From a virus, in IMG/VR virus record IMGVR_UViG_3300007541_000003, positions 1-42,201 of that record: 42,201 bases of DNA; one strand, given 5' to 3'. Under the pieces are notes generated by a model. That model was not told where the DNA came from. It made no database searches and saw only the letters and a program-made list of their open reading frames with translations. Position 1 is the stretch's first letter. Each line of letters starts with the position of its first letter. Shown here piece after piece: positions 21,265 to 37,546 of this stretch. The translations under genes were made by a program, and so were the position numbers.

Positions 21265-21290
21265 CCGCAACACGAATAGGAGAAAGCAAC

Positions 21291-21542
21291 GTGGAGAACA
21301 CGACGATCACCACCACCGGAAAGACCATCAAGATCGCGGGAGCGGGCTTCACCCACGAGGTCGAAGTCGCCGACGGTCAGACCGTCCAGGACGCGCTGAC
21401 GGCCGCAGGCATCGACGCGGAGGCGCTCGGCGTCGATCTGCTGGTCGGCGGCCAGCGCGTAGACGCGGCGGACCTCACGTCCGACGACGTCACCACCGGT
21501 GCCACCTACTCGGCACCGCCCAAGAGCGCGTCGCTCGGTTGA
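21291..21542 (+). CDS. Ubiquitin-like beta-grasp modifier protein (83 aa)
   Basis: The sequence has the layout of a small beta-grasp protein like ThiS, MoaD or prokaryotic ubiquitin-like modifiers. Two N-terminal strands (TITTTGKTIKIAGAGF, THEVEVADGQTV) lead to a central helix (VQDALTAAGID). A strand with the turn VGGQRVDAADLTSDDV follows, then a final strand and a flexible tail ending in Ser-Leu-Gly. The last residue is glycine, as needed for C-terminal adenylation by an E1-like enzyme, though only one Gly is present instead of the common Gly-Gly. The protein has no Cys. The GTG start follows AGGAGA at 21278. It is followed by a terminator, so it may be made in excess over the enzymes encoded at 22235-25058. 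Similar modifier genes beside E1, E2 and JAB genes are known from bacterial operons. Confidence 0.8.
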   Translation: MENTTITTTGKTIKIAGAGFTHEVEVADGQTVQDALTAAGIDAEALGVDLLVGGQRVDAADLTSDDVTTGATYSAPPKSASLG

Positions 21543-21567
21543 GCTGACGGCCTTTCCACCATTCGAG

Positions 21568-21605
21568 CGTGGGCGTGACCCCTTCGTGGGTCACGCCCAC
21601 GTTTT
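21568..21605 (+). terminator. Perfect 14-bp terminator between modifier gene and enzymes
   Basis: CGTGGGCGTGACCC (21568-21581) pairs exactly with GGGTCACGCCCACG (21588-21601) around CTTCGT, followed by TTTT. It lies about 25 bases after the modifier stop. The downstream enzymes would need read-through or a weak internal promoter; no clear promoter was seen in 21602-21640. Confidence 0.9.
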
Positions 21606-21639
21606 CGTGGAAGGACAAACAATCTCGATTGGAGGTCGT

Positions 21640-21945
21640 ATGAACGCAAAACGCGTTCAGCAAGCCACCGTCTTGGCACTTGCTCTCACGTTAGAGCGGT
21701 TGTTCGAGGCGCTGGAAAACGACAAACCCGAGCGCGCTATCGAGCAGGCGCTCATTCTCGAACAGGGCACGTCCTTGCTGACTGCGTCACTCGCAGAGAC
21801 GCAGGGCGTGACCGACGAGGCGCTGTCTGACTTGCGTCGCGAGTTGACACGTCTCATTGACGAGGCACCCGACACGGCGGAGGTGTTCTCCGTCGCGGTG
21901 GATGCCGCTTTCATCGAGCAGCGCAATAACGCGAAGCTCAACTAG
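21640..21945 (+). CDS. All-helical protein of the ubiquitin-like cassette (101 aa)
   Basis: No named family is recognised. The protein is predicted to be fully helical (QQATVLALALTLERLFEALEN, DEALSDLRRELTRLIDEAPDT), acidic, and free of Cys. GGAGG precedes the ATG at 21640 at the usual distance; a longer version would begin inside the modifier gene. Lying between the modifier and the enzyme genes on the same strand, it may be an adaptor or target of the modification system, but its position is the only argument. Confidence 0.65.
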   Translation: MNAKRVQQATVLALALTLERLFEALENDKPERAIEQALILEQGTSLLTASLAETQGVTDEALSDLRRELTRLIDEAPDTAEVFSVAVDAAFIEQRNNAKLN

Positions 21946-21968
21946 CCCAAAGGAAGGTGACACGAAGA

Positions 21969-22238
21969 ATGGCACGCAAGCTACGCAGCTATCAGTTTGG
22001 TAGCCGACACGTAGGACGTCCCGCTCTGTACCCGTGGGACGAGTGGCTCGACGGCAGCATCGTCGAAGTCACGGAAGGCGAGGACGTACCCAACATAACC
22101 AACTTCCGTTCGACGTTACATCAGGCAGCCGAGCGCAACAACAAGTCGGTTCGGTCGCGTCGTGAACGGCGGTCAGACGGTCCCGATCGTCTCGTGTTTC
22201 AGGCGAAGCGTCGGTACCGCAAGCAGGTGTCGTCGTGA
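21969..22238 (+). CDS. Basic DNA-binding-like small protein (89 aa)
   Basis: The sequence resembles short actinophage proteins with an N-terminal beta part (LYPWDEWLDGSIVEVTEGED) and a helix followed by a basic strand (FRSTLHQAAERNNKSVRSR, LVFQAKRRYR), which probably bind nucleic acid. No catalytic residues are apparent. The ATG at 21969 is preferred, with AAGGAAGG upstream; an in-frame GTG at 21957 is possible. Its stop overlaps the GTG of the E2-like gene by four bases, so it is coupled to the modification enzymes and may control them or tie them to DNA. Confidence 0.65.
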   Translation: MARKLRSYQFGSRHVGRPALYPWDEWLDGSIVEVTEGEDVPNITNFRSTLHQAAERNNKSVRSRRERRSDGPDRLVFQAKRRYRKQVSS

Positions 22239-23530
22239 CTTCGGTTGCGGAAGCACCGAGGACGTGGAGCGCGGAAGTCGATAGCGACTTCGGTTGGGAC
22301 ACAGCCGAAGCGTTTCGGATTCGCGAGGAATGGCTCGCGGGTCAGCGCAGCCGCTTTGGCGACTCGGACGACGAGGGGATTCCATTCCGGTTCGGCTCGT
22401 GGACGCGTTGGGAGATGCTTTGGCCGATGCTCCCGCTGCTACAAGAGCAGCTCGACGTAACGATTCTGTTCGGCTCTGACGAGTCGGGCTCTCGTACGCC
22501 GCCCGAGTGGTGGCGCGCGCAGTCTCGCGTCGACTTTGACGCCGAGCCTCGCACAGTCATAATCGCCGGTGACGGGTATCTGTACTCGTCAATCGGTGCC
22601 GAGCGACAGATGGTCGACCCCGATGCGTTCCTAACGACGGTACGTGACCGCGTCATCGAGACTCCGGCATTAGACGCCGGGTTGACGTGGTCCCGGCCGA
22701 TTATGCCGGACGAGAGTCTGGACGTGAACCGGAAGCTCGGCTCGATCGGGCCGAACGTCGTCTCGTTGGCGTGGTGGTGGCGAACCGACTCGACGGCGGC
22801 GGATCAGCTGTCACTGCTGTACGACGCCCTGGCATCCGCCATCGAGAGAGCTCTCGACCCGTCACTCGCCGAGACGTACGAGATGCTGACGGCGGAACGT
22901 ATCGAGCAGCAGCTCTACGAGATCATCAAGGGTCGTGGCACTCGTGAGCGCCGCGAACTCGAAGCGAAGGTGCCGCATCTCGTGTCGTCGTCAGCCGAGG
23001 CGGAGCAGCTCATACGTACCAACGAGCAGCGCCTCACGGAGATTCGTGCCCAGCTCAAAGCGATGGGTGAAGCCGAGATCGCCGACGAGGAACTCGCGTC
23101 GGTCGTCGTCGCCGAGCTGGCCGAGCTTCGCAAGCACGAGGACATCGTGTCGATCGACTCGATGGCCTCCGCCTCCGAGGAAAGTGCGACTCTGACAGTC
23201 ACGACTCGTGACTTGCCGCTCGTGAACATTGACGACGGCGAATCGACGATCGGCGGCTCGTACCGAATCGACGTCAACTTCGCGTACGACTCGGCACGAG
23301 TTCGTGTGACCAACCTGACCCGGCGAATCGGTTCTTACGATCACCCGCATATCTCCGACGGCAACTTCTGCTTCGGCGATCAGCGGCGACTCGTGGACGG
23401 ACTCGTCGAACGTGGGCAGATCAGCGCGGCGGTGTCCGTCATCGTCGATCTGCTCAAACAGGTCAACCCTGACGATGTGTACACGCAAGAGTGGGAGGCG
23501 TGGTTCCAGCTTCCCGAAAGTGAGGTGTGA
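22235..23530 (+). CDS. E2-like ubiquitin-conjugating protein (431 aa)
   Basis: The C-terminal domain (about residues 320-425) has the E2/UBC signature of prokaryotic E2-like proteins: three beta strands (ATLTVTTRDLPLV, SYRIDVNFAY, ARVRVTNLTR), then DHPHI with His370 and His372. The active-site loop is GNFCFG, with candidate catalytic Cys379, and final helices follow. The N-terminal 210 residues form an unknown alpha/beta domain (GIPFRFGSWTRWEML, PRTVIIAGDGYLYSS), and residues 210-310 are a charged coiled coil. Cys379 should accept the activated modifier from the E1-like enzyme (24375-25058) and pass it on to a target. The GTG start overlaps the upstream stop by four bases and the stop overlaps the JAB gene by four. 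The long N-terminal extension is unlike stand-alone E2s and could select substrates. Confidence 0.8.
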   Translation: MTSVAEAPRTWSAEVDSDFGWDTAEAFRIREEWLAGQRSRFGDSDDEGIPFRFGSWTRWEMLWPMLPLLQEQLDVTILFGSDESGSRTPPEWWRAQSRVDFDAEPRTVIIAGDGYLYSSIGAERQMVDPDAFLTTVRDRVIETPALDAGLTWSRPIMPDESLDVNRKLGSIGPNVVSLAWWWRTDSTAADQLSLLYDALASAIERALDPSLAETYEMLTAERIEQQLYEIIKGRGTRERRELEAKVPHLVSSSAEAEQLIRTNEQRLTEIRAQLKAMGEAEIADEELASVVVAELAELRKHEDIVSIDSMASASEESATLTVTTRDLPLVNIDDGESTIGGSYRIDVNFAYDSARVRVTNLTRRIGSYDHPHISDGNFCFGDQRRLVDGLVERGQISAAVSVIVDLLKQVNPDDVYTQEWEAWFQLPESEV

Positions 23531-24378
23531 ACGTGGCAACCCTAGTGCTGACCAACGAAGTGTACGACCGCATTACCGAGTACGTGCGACTCATCGACGC
23601 CGAGATCGGAATGTTCGGCTACGTGACAATGCGAGACGGTGACTTCTACGTGGACGATGTGTTCCTCGTGGAGCAGACTGTCACCGGTGCGTCGGTGGAC
23701 TTCGCCGACGAAGGCTTGGAGTACGCAATCCAGCGTGCGATCAAGGACGAACGCATCAGCGACCTGATGTTCTGCTGTCACTCACACGTCAATATGGGAG
23801 CTTTCTGGTCCCAAACTGACGAGGATATGATCGAGGGGATGAACAACGGGATGACCCCGTATCTCGTCTCCCTCGTGATCAACAAGAAGGGCGAGACGGA
23901 GCAGCGGGTTGACTTCTACAATCCCGCCGGTCCTCTCGGTGACTTCACGTCGCAGGTCCGATACGACCTCGACCTTCGGGTCGAACGCGAGGACGACGAC
24001 GTGATCCTGGACGAGATCGACCGCCTCGTCAAGCGTCGGTTCTCACCTGTGGCGCGTAGCAAGGGCAAGCGGTCCATCTACGACGACTACTCGTGGGGTG
24101 CGTCGATGGGTGGTGTGTCGATGGGTGACGATTGGTTCCTACCAAGCCAAACGTCCAACCTGTTGACGTCAGCTGACGTGACGACTGACGACGACATCGT
24201 CGCCACGGTTCACACGACCAACGCTGCCGGTGACGTCATCGGCACCGAACACGTCCCGATTCAGGAGCTTACCGACGACGAGTTGGAGCGCCTGTTTCTC
24301 GATCCGCGAGACGAGGCGCTGGTGGATGCGTTCACCGACCCTCGTAGTGACAAGACCAACCGGAAGGAGAGCAAGTGA
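23527..24378 (+). CDS. JAB/JAMM-family metalloprotease, deubiquitinase-like (283 aa)
   Basis: All residues of the JAMM zinc site are present and correctly spaced: Glu26 in DAEIGMFGYV, then CHSHVNMGAFWSQTD with His85, His87, Ser95 and Asp98 (H-x-H-x7-S-x2-D). Enzymes with this motif cut isopeptide or peptide bonds after the C-terminal Gly of ubiquitin-like proteins, removing or maturing the modifier. The first 140 residues form the MPN domain. The rest (helical, then Gly/Met-rich around residue 195, acidic at the end) is unassigned. The GTG start overlaps the E2-like stop; a GTG two codons later is also possible. The modifier already ends in Gly, so release of conjugates is a more likely job than trimming. 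Confidence 0.88.
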   Translation: MNVATLVLTNEVYDRITEYVRLIDAEIGMFGYVTMRDGDFYVDDVFLVEQTVTGASVDFADEGLEYAIQRAIKDERISDLMFCCHSHVNMGAFWSQTDEDMIEGMNNGMTPYLVSLVINKKGETEQRVDFYNPAGPLGDFTSQVRYDLDLRVEREDDDVILDEIDRLVKRRFSPVARSKGKRSIYDDYSWGASMGGVSMGDDWFLPSQTSNLLTSADVTTDDDIVATVHTTNAAGDVIGTEHVPIQELTDDELERLFLDPRDEALVDAFTDPRSDKTNRKESK

Positions 24379-25058
24379 GCACCGTTACGTACACGCGACA
24401 GCTGGGATTCTTCGACCCTGCCGACCACGCGTCGGCAGCCGTGTCGGTAATCGGGCTCGGCGGGATTGGCAGCTTTGCTGCCGTCTCGCTGGCGAAACTC
24501 GGCGTCCCGAGGTTGACGCTCGTGGACTTCGACTCGGTCGAAGCGCACAACGTACCGAATCAGTTCTACTCGACTGACGCGATCGGTAGTACCAAAGCCG
24601 AAGCGATCGGCGCTACGTGTCGAGACTTCGGCGGCATCGAACCGAACGTACTCGTCGGCAAGATGGGCGCCGACGGACTCGACGAGTGGGAGCCAACCGA
24701 GGTCGTCGTGAGCGGCCTCGACTCGATGGCCGCACGTTCCGACGTGTGGGCCAACGTCAAGATGAACCCTCGAATCAAGATGTACCTTGACGCGAGGATC
24801 GCCGGTCAGCTCATCGTGATCTACGCCGTCAACCCGATGAACCTCGACGACCTGGACGCGTACGAGCGTACTCTCCACTCCGACGACGAAGCGATGCCAG
24901 CGGCGTGTACCGAACGCGGCGTGATCGACGTCGGGATGGTCGTCGGCGGTCTGCTGACGCGCCTCGTACGAGCGCACTTCGGCAACGACGACGTCGAACC
25001 GGTGACCGTAATGAACCTGTCATCGCTGACGCTGAACCGCGGGGGGTGGGTACTGTGA
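24375..25058 (+). CDS. ThiF/E1-like adenylating enzyme (227 aa)
   Basis: The Rossmann nucleotide loop is GLGGIGS at residues 27-33, followed by an acidic DFDSVEAHNVPNQ (Asp51, Asp53) and STKAEA, the usual ThiF/MoeB/E1 landmarks. A second half carries GLDSMAAR and PAACTERGVIDVGMVVGG, with Cys178 as the candidate thioester residue. At 227 residues it is a minimal enzyme of roughly ThiF/MoeB size, without extra C-terminal domains. It should adenylate the C-terminal Gly of the modifier at 21291-21542 and hand it to Cys379 of the E2-like protein. The GTG start overlaps the JAB stop by four bases. Sulfur transfer is an alternative reading, but the neighbouring E2-like and JAB genes argue for conjugation. 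Confidence 0.88.
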   Translation: MSTVTYTRQLGFFDPADHASAAVSVIGLGGIGSFAAVSLAKLGVPRLTLVDFDSVEAHNVPNQFYSTDAIGSTKAEAIGATCRDFGGIEPNVLVGKMGADGLDEWEPTEVVVSGLDSMAARSDVWANVKMNPRIKMYLDARIAGQLIVIYAVNPMNLDDLDAYERTLHSDDEAMPAACTERGVIDVGMVVGGLLTRLVRAHFGNDDVEPVTVMNLSSLTLNRGGWVL

Positions 25059-25615
25059 GCAACGAACCTACTTCGACACGTCGGCAGTGTATCCATTGTC
25101 GCCGTCCCGTAATGTGGAATCGGCGTCAATGCCGTGCCCACCAACGGATGACGGTGTGGGATGAACACTACGCGGGGCGTCACGGCACCGATGGCTACGG
25201 CTGTCCCGAGTGCGGCCACGGCACCGCTGAGATCACGTTTGACACGTACTTTACTCCGTTCGGTGCCGATTCTGCCGATTCACTCGAACGCGTGAGGTGC
25301 GCTACGTTCACGACCGACATCAGCGAACACGAACACGAGGGTTCATACCTCAGCCTGTACATCGACGCTGATTGGGGTCGGGACAGGGTCGCCGTTGCTG
25401 TACGTGAGTGGATGACTTACGGGAGTAACACCGGAGTACCGTGGCCGTTCGTTGACTCGAACGGTAACGAGATCGGTAGAGAACGCAGCCCTGACATATT
25501 CAGCACTAGCGACGCCGAGATCGAGCGAGTCATTGACGAGTTGTGGGAAAACCGTGAAGCTATCGAGTACCGATGCTCGTACTGCGAAGCTCTCGTCATC
25601 GAGTTGGAGTGGTGA
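25055..25615 (+). CDS. Zinc-knuckle protein of the ubiquitin-like cassette (186 aa)
   Basis: The GTG at 25055 overlaps the E1-like stop by four bases, so this gene belongs to the enzyme operon. Cys12-x2-Cys15, Cys26-x2-His29 and Cys50-x2-Cys53 form N-terminal zinc ligands in treble-clef-like pairs. A last pair, Cys174-x2-Cys177, lies at the C-terminus. The middle is beta-rich and acidic (HEHEGSYLSLYIDADWGRD). The spacing does not match a classic RING, but zinc-binding treble-clef proteins act as E3-like partners in other prokaryotic ubiquitin-like operons. That role here is inference. The alternative is a general metal-binding or transcription-factor-like protein. Confidence 0.7.
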   Translation: MSNEPTSTRRQCIHCRRPVMWNRRQCRAHQRMTVWDEHYAGRHGTDGYGCPECGHGTAEITFDTYFTPFGADSADSLERVRCATFTTDISEHEHEGSYLSLYIDADWGRDRVAVAVREWMTYGSNTGVPWPFVDSNGNEIGRERSPDIFSTSDAEIERVIDELWENREAIEYRCSYCEALVIELEW

Positions 25616-36539: not shown

Positions 36540-37071
36540 CCTGGCTTTGATTGGCAAGATGGGGTCCGGCAAGTCGGCTGTTGCCAACGTGCTGTGCGAC
36601 TCTTACGGCTACCGCGCAGAGCACTTCGCGCAGAGCTTGAAGGACGTGGCGCGCCATATATGGGGCGAGGGTGCCGAAGTCAATCGCGACTACTTGCAGC
36701 GCTTAGGCGTGCTGGTCAGGACGATCGACGAGGCGGCCTGGGTCAACATCTTGGTTCGCCGTCTGGAAGAGCTGGAATCCGAGGGCACGCCGGTCGTCAT
36801 TGACGATTGCCGTTTCCCAAACGAGTACGAAGCGCTCGCTAAGCGGGGCTTCATGTTTGTGGAAGTGTCGGCGCAAGAGTCGCGCCGCGTCGATCGGCTT
36901 CAACGAATCGGCAAGCTCTCGGACTTGGAGCAGCTGACCCACGAATCGGAGACGGCGCTAGATGACACAGAGCTGTTTCCGCGGGACTTCGAGATCGTCA
37001 ATAACGGCGACTTGGGGGCGCTTCGTGAGCAGGTTAGCGACGTCGCGTTCAGGCTTGAAAGCCGTGTCTAG
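36505..37071 (+). CDS. Deoxynucleoside monophosphate kinase (188 aa)
   Basis: P-loop IGKMGSGKSAVA at residues 16-27 is followed by DSYGYRAEHFAQSLKDVARHI and by LGVLVRTIDEAAWVNILV. The segment VVIDDCRFPNEYEALAKRG is typical of T4 gene 1-like dNMP kinases. The enzyme phosphorylates dNMPs released from host DNA to feed replication. The ATG at 36505 overlaps the previous gene. The 3' end overlaps the deoxyribosyltransferase gene by eight bases. Confidence 0.8.
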   Translation: MSKAESGSLRTNLALIGKMGSGKSAVANVLCDSYGYRAEHFAQSLKDVARHIWGEGAEVNRDYLQRLGVLVRTIDEAAWVNILVRRLEELESEGTPVVIDDCRFPNEYEALAKRGFMFVEVSAQESRRVDRLQRIGKLSDLEQLTHESETALDDTELFPRDFEIVNNGDLGALREQVSDVAFRLESRV

Positions 37072-37546
37072 CCCGTCGGTCTACCTTGCTGGGCCCATTA
37101 CGGGCCTGACCTGGGATGAGGCGGAAGCCTGGCGGCTGCCGGATTCGCAGACCGCTACGACGATTGCGCGATACGGCGGCGCGGTGCTGAATCCGATGCG
37201 CGACCAGCACAAGTGGGACACGGGCGGCCCGTTGCCCGACAACTTCGATGGCTCGACCGGCATCCAGGAGGACTTTCGGATGATCGAAGAGTGCTCCGCC
37301 ATTCTTGCCAACTTCGTTGGGGCCAAAGCCGTGAGCCTCGGCACTATTGCCGAGCTCGGCTACGGCTACGCCATGCACAAGCCGATTGTCGTTGCGATGG
37401 AGCCGGACAACATTCACAACCACGCGTTCATTCGGGAGATGGCGACCACGATTCGGCCTACGCTGGTCGGAGCTGCGAGCGCCGTTGGTTTCCTGATTGA
37501 GACGACGCCTGTCTACCGCGATGCCGTCGCAGTTCCTTACGCCTAA
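37064..37546 (+). CDS. Nucleoside 2-deoxyribosyltransferase-like enzyme (160 aa)
   Basis: SVYLAGPITGLTWDEAEAWR at the start and SAILANFVGAKAVSLGTIAE...LGYGYAMHKPIVVAME in the middle match the nucleoside deoxyribosyltransferase family. The likely catalytic Glu lies in GTIAELGYG. Such enzymes exchange bases on deoxynucleosides or split DNA precursors, and in phages help nucleotide salvage or base modification. The GTG at 37064 is the last start before the conserved part. It is the last rightward gene before the convergent boundary. Confidence 0.75.
   Translation: MSSPSVYLAGPITGLTWDEAEAWRLPDSQTATTIARYGGAVLNPMRDQHKWDTGGPLPDNFDGSTGIQEDFRMIEECSAILANFVGAKAVSLGTIAELGYGYAMHKPIVVAMEPDNIHNHAFIREMATTIRPTLVGAASAVGFLIETTPVYRDAVAVPYA

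Follow-up and report, generated by a model that had tools for sequence, protein, structure and literature searches.

A predicted ubiquitin-like conjugation cassette in the replication region of a small bacterial virus

Genes of the locus and their assignment

The IMG/VR virus record IMGVR_UViG_3300007541_000003, a stretch of 42,201 bases from a small bacterial virus (hereafter the window), carries on its plus strand a run of genes predicted to encode a ubiquitin-like protein (Ubl) and three enzymes, E1-like, E2-like and JAB, of a candidate conjugation and deconjugation pathway. An initial annotation, made from the letters alone, had claimed five open reading frames (ORFs) of such a pathway at 21291–25615, and all five are found there in the ORF list and its translations. 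The features of the locus are as follows, with the evidence in brackets (HMM, hidden Markov model; AF2, AlphaFold2 structure prediction).

21278..21283, plus strand: Shine-Dalgarno-like AGGAGA, 7 nt upstream of the Ubl start (sequence)
21291..21542, plus strand: Ubl, 83-residue predicted beta-grasp modifier, end PPKSASLG (phmmer, HMM, profile, AF2, Foldseek)
21568..21601, plus strand: intrinsic terminator hairpin directly 3′ of the Ubl gene (14-bp stem then TTTT; z = -6.6)
21640..21945, plus strand: 101-residue ORF between the Ubl and E2 genes, no assigned role, membership unproven (sequence; no relatives)
21969..22238, plus strand: 89-residue ORF with a 4-base overlap with the E2 start, no assigned role, membership unproven (no relatives)
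22235..23530, plus strand: E2-like protein, 431 residues, putative UBC-like domain at ~284-431, HPH-x6-C379-F-G (family HMM, hhalign, AF2)
23527..24378, plus strand: predicted JAB/JAMM protease, 283 residues, intact E26 and H85-x-H87-x7-S95-x2-D98 (Prok-JAB, family profile, invariant residues)
24375..25058, plus strand: E1-like, predicted ThiF-fold adenylating enzyme, 227 residues, GLGGIGS and C178 (Pfam ThiF, family profile)
25055..25615, plus strand: Cys-pair (zinc-ribbon-like) protein, 186 residues, membership not supported (4-base overlap with the E1 stop only)

The junctions and residues named in that annotation are likewise present: GTG starts at 22235, 23527, 24375 and 25055 each overlap the preceding stop by 4 bases, and the translations contain GLGGIGS and C178 in the E1, E26 and H85-S-H87-x7-S95-x2-D98 in the JAB, HPHISDGNFCFG with C379 in the E2-like protein, and a C-terminal Gly83 in the Ubl. 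The E2, JAB and E1 genes (22235-25058) are linked by such overlaps, and this chain suggests coupled translation. The Ubl gene, which has its own Shine-Dalgarno sequence, stands outside the chain, with the terminator hairpin and the two small ORFs (21640-21945 and 21969-22238) lying between it and the E2 gene; neither small ORF has relatives among the phage loci compared. Across those loci, not all of which are independent, a terminator-like element lies 3′ of the Ubl gene in 28 of 65, as against 1 of 204 E1, E2 and JAB genes and 60 of 1006 other genes. The terminator after the Ubl gene thus probably holds the modifier in excess over the enzymes. The Cys-pair protein, put forward as a zinc-knuckle component of the pathway, fares less well, having no relative in the phage records or compared loci, so that the overlap with the E1 gene is all that ties it to the cassette.

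Searches of Pfam with single sequences were strong for the E1 alone (ThiF, 3.6e-20) and weak for the JAB (Prok-JAB, 0.0011, under the Pfam cutoff), while the E2-like protein and the Ubl needed family profiles. Compared with the PDB, the E1 profile, drawn from phage relatives, matched UBA5 (3e-17), then MccB, MoeB, Uba1, Cap2 and BubCD, and the JAB profile matched the archaeal SAMP protease JAMM1 (1.3e-4), then CSN5, AMSH and RPN11. Among 45 representative phage relatives, C178 of the E1 is present in 44, and E26, H85, H87, S95 and D98 of the JAB are identical in all. On this sequence evidence the two are assigned as a predicted ThiF-fold adenylation domain with a nucleotide-binding motif and a conserved Cys, and a putative JAMM-motif protease (E...H-x-H-x7-S-x2-D).

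The Ubl is similar to small proteins encoded beside phage E1, JAB and E2 genes (phmmer, 5e-5; 36% identity to that of locus L061), and matches the HMM of one of the Ubl clades in these phages, clade A, at 8e-14. Its family profile matches SAMP2 in the PDB (5e-5), and family members match ThiS and Ub-Mut7C. The modifier fold proposed initially is supported by a moderately confident AF2 model (mean predicted local distance difference test, pLDDT, 65) whose elements follow the beta-grasp order, and with which Foldseek retrieved mostly SUMO, NEDD8, ubiquitin and RBD folds (E 0.05-0.25, none significant alone). The protein is thus assigned, from sequence and model, as a predicted beta-grasp modifier with a putatively activatable C-terminus, Gly83; as the end is already Gly, it would need no trimming.

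C-termini vary among relatives. Many clade-A Ubls (e.g. L024 6533-6751) end Lys-Gly-Asn, and the terminal Asn may be trimmed by the JAB or hint at MccB-like chemistry. Most clade-B Ubls (e.g. L049 6006-6233 and L082 5455-5682) end not in Gly but in Ala (K-A-D/N-N-A, e.g. KADNA), and rare relatives end in NG, or in GG plus a tail, so that Gly may have been replaced by Ala at the reactive end. Cap2 conjugates cGAS, its substrate ends in Gly or Ala, and Ala occurs at the C-terminus of conjugated cGAS; the Gly of the window and the Ala ends of clade B are therefore both compatible with conjugation (PMC10097602). Tandem Ubls (L026, L063, L075), Ubl fusions (L042, L044, L067, L073, L087) and, elsewhere, C-terminal extensions point to maturation of the Ubl by the JAB.

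The identity of the E2-like protein is the weakest point of the assignment, as single-sequence scans gave no match and Pfam on single E2 sequences was uninformative. Against a family HMM seeded with neighbouring proteins that bear the motif, the window protein scores 3.8e-16, a partly circular figure since it was itself one of the seeds. When the profile of the C-terminal core was aligned with four UBC enzymes using hhalign, a probability of 79% and a score of 36.3 over 108 columns were obtained, with HPH-C379 placed onto the UBC HPN-C85. Column-shuffled profiles (n=60) scored at most 15.2, removal of the window sequence left a score of 27.2, and unrelated control profiles stayed below 1%. H372 and C379 are invariant in 41 of 41 relatives, which were chosen partly by that motif. 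AF2 predicts, for residues ~284-431, a helix, a strand meander, the Cys loop and two helices, mostly at pLDDT 80-95, and the best PDB fold found by Foldseek is the E2 Cdc34/UBE2R1 (E 0.095, not significant), a search with the full model being hampered by its low-confidence N-terminal half. Sequence profiles of the core found nothing significant in the PDB, the sole match (E 1.9) being one at motif level, with a ubiquitin-conjugating enzyme of human origin, and the clade-B E2 profile has no direct UBC match, yet matches the clade-A E2 profile. Placement of the 431-residue protein in the E2 superfamily thus holds to the extent that its family profile aligns with UBC enzymes above both shuffled and unrelated controls, and the protein is assigned as a predicted UBC-fold E2 with a putative catalytic Cys. 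Weak matches of the E2-like protein to NapD and NrdR lie in a long helix of the model and were set aside as fortuitous.

Occurrence in other phages

Single-protein scans of IMG/VR with the window E2, E1 or JAB returned no match, and the E1 alignment was too divergent to serve as a query. A scan with two JABs, that of the window and that of a gut-phage relative, found at least 150 contigs with a related JAB, of which 80 were kept for neighbourhood analysis. An E1 gene adjoins the JAB gene in 78 of the 80, and most also encode a Ubl of clade A or B and an E2-like protein with [HN]PH...C-x-G, nearly all intact contigs having both an E2-like gene and a Ubl; because the contigs were chosen by the JAB alone, these neighbours constitute independent evidence. 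The same search in 84,980 cellular genomes gave two contigs only (L097 and L098), a Clostridium scaffold and a contig of an archaeal metagenome-assembled genome, either of which could be prophage or binned phage.

The components have also diverged together. Mirror-tree distances correlate between E1 and JAB (r = 0.81), E1 and E2 (0.80), and JAB and E2 (0.72; Mantel p = 2e-4 each). Mapped onto the E1 tree, Ubl clade needs 4 changes, compared with 16.8 when shuffled. E1, JAB and E2 co-diverge as a probable functional unit.

Among the closest counterparts of the window genes are the cassettes of the IMG/VR phages L036, L046, L047, L063 and L061, with a clade-A Ubl, a UBC-like E2 (PH...C-x-G), a JAB and an E1. 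They differ in that the E1 is only ~25-30% identical to that of the window, the Ubl tails are KGN, KGA, VGN or KGE, some have two E2s, and gene order is variable. Duplication is not confined to the E2, some cassettes (L063, L047, L022, L035, L087, L046) having two E2-like genes, two JABs or up to 3 Ubl genes. In the group of L021 and L090 a variant HFG-x-GHLCGG protein occupies the E2 position, and a reverse transcriptase-like gene recurs beside clade-B cassettes (8 E1 clusters), e.g. L004 6954-8291 and L081 8639-9805.

A tblastn search with the E1 matched 91 phage records. Among Steigviridae crAss-like phages (crAss001, DAC15, cr126, cr111 and others) and Flavobacterium Fpv phages, a block of Ubl-like, E2-like, JAB and E1 genes, in that order, adjoins the DNA primase gene and usually also that of uracil-DNA glycosylase (UDG), its members being labelled mostly thiamine biosynthesis (ThiF), metalloprotease or hypothetical. 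The blocks of crAss001 (gp76-gp79), DAC15 (gp048-gp051) and FpV4 (gp50-gp53) resemble the window in gene order and replication neighbours, and their E1 and JAB are homologous in sequence to those of the window. Unlike the window Ubl, theirs is extended beyond ...KKIKSG|A, and their E2-like protein has HSH-x15-C-x-G in place of HPH-x6-C-F-G; because of this different motif and an hhalign probability of only 19%, its identity as an E2 is less certain. In crAss001 (MH675552.1) the labelled block spans gp75-gp79 (L006 1247-6469), and Ubls of this type carry an invariant Lys-x3-Ser-Gly across relatives followed by a long C-terminal extension, which suggests processing or fused cargo. The jumbo Xanthomonas phage PhiXhv-12 (L010 1313-4687) encodes an 892-residue E2-like protein beside a ThiF gene, upstream of topoisomerase genes, with no recognised JAB at the locus. 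A full set had been viewed as exceptional in a phage, a view at odds with these contigs and cultured crAss-like and Flavobacterium phages.

Relation to known conjugation systems

BilABCD and Cap2/Cap3 share E1, E2 and JAB functions with the window, and differ from it in architecture. BilABCD comprises a two-domain Ubl (BilA), a two-lobed E1 with inactive and active adenylation domains, and an E2 with a CEHH motif (PMC11354881), whereas the window has a Ubl of a single 83-residue domain, a single-domain E1 of 227 residues and no His after C379, and so no CEHH motif. In Cap2/Cap3 of the cyclic oligonucleotide-based anti-phage signalling system (CBASS), and in operon types 6a and 6b, E1 and E2 are fused; in the window they are separate ORFs (24375-25058 and 22235-23530). 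Operon type 6d of Iyer 2006 has separate Ubl, JAB, E1 and E2 genes, as here, but its JAB bears an extra N-terminal alpha+beta domain, for which the window JAB, with its catalytic Glu at residue 26, has no room, and its E2 lacks the upstream His and has a downstream one, the reverse of the window E2 with its upstream HPH. The lambda TAPI/TAPK pair is a Ubl and a JAB-NlpC protein within the tail cluster, whereas the window genes include an E1 and an E2, lie on the replication side and give no NlpC match. Relays of the ThiS/MoaD type employ a sulfurtransferase or cofactor partner and no E2, in contrast to the window, where an E2-like gene is present and no rhodanese-like match was found in a scan that was not exhaustive.

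Because the features that define Bil, Cap2/Cap3, Iyer type 6d and lambda TAPI/TAPK are wanting, the window genes are classed apart from them. On sequence and predicted structure, the cassette appears to belong, as a divergent member, to a variant of the ubiquitin-like conjugation systems that is carried by phages. The open-licence literature yielded no account of a full Ubl conjugation set in a phage, and an earlier report may exist elsewhere.

Proposed pathway, alternatives and significance

The claim that the phage carries its own conjugation system is supported for the modifier, E1, E2-like and JAB set, through homology, active sites, structure prediction and the blocks found in dozens of phages; it does not extend to the zinc-knuckle protein. 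What is observed is the identity of the genes, their active sites, and the conserved way in which they occur and diverge together; from this we infer catalysis, C-terminal chemistry, timing and targets as follows. The ThiF-type E1 would adenylate Gly83 of the Ubl and hand it on, probably via C178, to the E2-like protein at C379. The latter, a separate protein, would then couple the Ubl to its targets, at lysines or some other nucleophile, with no recognisable E3. The JAB metalloprotease would remove the Ubl and, in relatives with tandem, fused or extended Ubls, may also mature it.

Position within the genome bears on when this may happen. The plus strand of the window carries primase/helicase-like, helicase and DNA polymerase I genes adjoining the module, while terminase, portal, internal-virion-protein-like and capsid genes lie on the minus strand. 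Since the cassette adjoins the primase and replication genes, away from those of the virion, it most likely acts early or in the middle of infection, with proteins of replication or host takeover, and not virions, as its targets. Three close relatives (L099-L101, >99.7% identical) stop short of the module and so are uninformative on its presence. The host is uncertain, as the best-covering polymerase matches, from actinobacterial phages, are only 27-29% identical. Further along the window, a nucleoside 2-deoxyribosyltransferase-like gene (36962-37546; Pfam 2e-10) may serve nucleotide metabolism or base modification, and a 1110-residue ORF at the contig end (38855-42187, minus strand) has no PHROG or Pfam match.

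Overall, we consider it likely that these genes form a ubiquitin-like conjugation cassette of the phage itself, which acts early or midway in infection on proteins of replication or host takeover. Several points weigh against this. The window E2 core alone does not match UBC enzymes significantly (hhalign probability 1.5%), the match resting on the family, and the four UBC reference sequences were entered by hand. The window E1 is the second-longest branch of the E1 tree, with at most ~30% identity to any other; the Ubl model is only moderately confident; and the SASLG tail lacks Gly-Gly and is unlike the KGN, KGA and RGA tails of its clade. No E3 is recognisable, and the suggested timing derives from gene position only.

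The alternatives are given in declining order of probability. That the cassette tags components of competing phages, as Bil tags tails, and so brings about superinfection exclusion is unlikely, though it deserves a hearing: component types of this kind are antiviral in bacteria, in Bil and Cap2/Cap3 (PMC12135933, PMC11354881, PMC10097602), and the cassette is modular, with several gene orders. Distantly related phage groups nevertheless keep it in a fixed block beside core replication genes and not in a variable cargo region, and PADLOC gave no model match beyond generic E1-E2. Rather improbable is a counter-defence role, in which the JAB and decoy Ubl, E1 and E2 would disturb host ubiquitin-like immunity (CBASS Cap2, Bil or Bub). 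The relationship of the E1 family to Cap2 and BubCD and the deconjugase type of the JAB fit such a role, but mere blocking would not require that the E1 and E2 be intact or that the phage have its own Ubl, with all catalytic residues conserved in 41-45 lineages.

We doubt still more that the phage decorates its own capsid or tail with the Ubl, with effects on assembly or adsorption. Modification of the virion was among the roles raised in the initial annotation, and bacterial Bil does target phage tails (PMC12135933); gene position makes it the least favoured of those roles, the module being on the strand opposite terminase, portal and capsid genes and, in relatives, beside the primase. The virion proteins named for crAss001 exclude gp75-79 (PMC6235969), in a gel survey that could miss low-abundance adducts. 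A sulfur-carrier relay of the ThiS, MoaD or Urm1 type, with the E1 thiocarboxylating the Ubl to supply sulfur for tRNA, base or cofactor modification, is distinctly improbable. The Ubl profile resembles ThiS, SAMP2 and Ub-Mut7C, and the E1 resembles ThiF and MoeB; such relays, however, lack a conserved UBC-like E2 with an invariant Cys, which is present here, and no rhodanese, cysteine desulfurase or cofactor enzyme was seen among the genes scanned near the module in a non-exhaustive search. Least credible by far is MccB-like chemistry, in which the E1-like enzyme would nucleotidylate the C-terminal residue of the small protein to give a toxin-like product, since the window Ubl ends in Gly and cassettes with a Ubl and an E1 nearly always have an E2 and a JAB too, notwithstanding that the E1 profile also matches MccB, that the microcin C precursor ends in Asn, and that many clade-A Ubls do likewise (KGN).

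A broader proposition, to which we give slightly less than an even chance, is that the conjugation cassette of the window belongs to a large, ancient and virus-restricted branch of ubiquitin-like conjugation in tailed phages, crAss-like gut phages included, that controls infection by tagging proteins of the host or of replication. In prokaryotes, ubiquitin-like conjugation has been described chiefly in operons of bacteria and as a defence against phages, and a conserved four-part cassette in the replication block of many phages would mean that protein tagging is used by phages themselves. The thiamine-biosynthesis and metalloprotease labels in a very abundant group of gut phages would then be reassigned, and the cultured carriers crAss001, DAC15 and FpV4 make a role in infection testable genetically and by mass spectrometry. 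If true, phages run a ubiquitin-like post-translational code of their own, and do not merely evade one.

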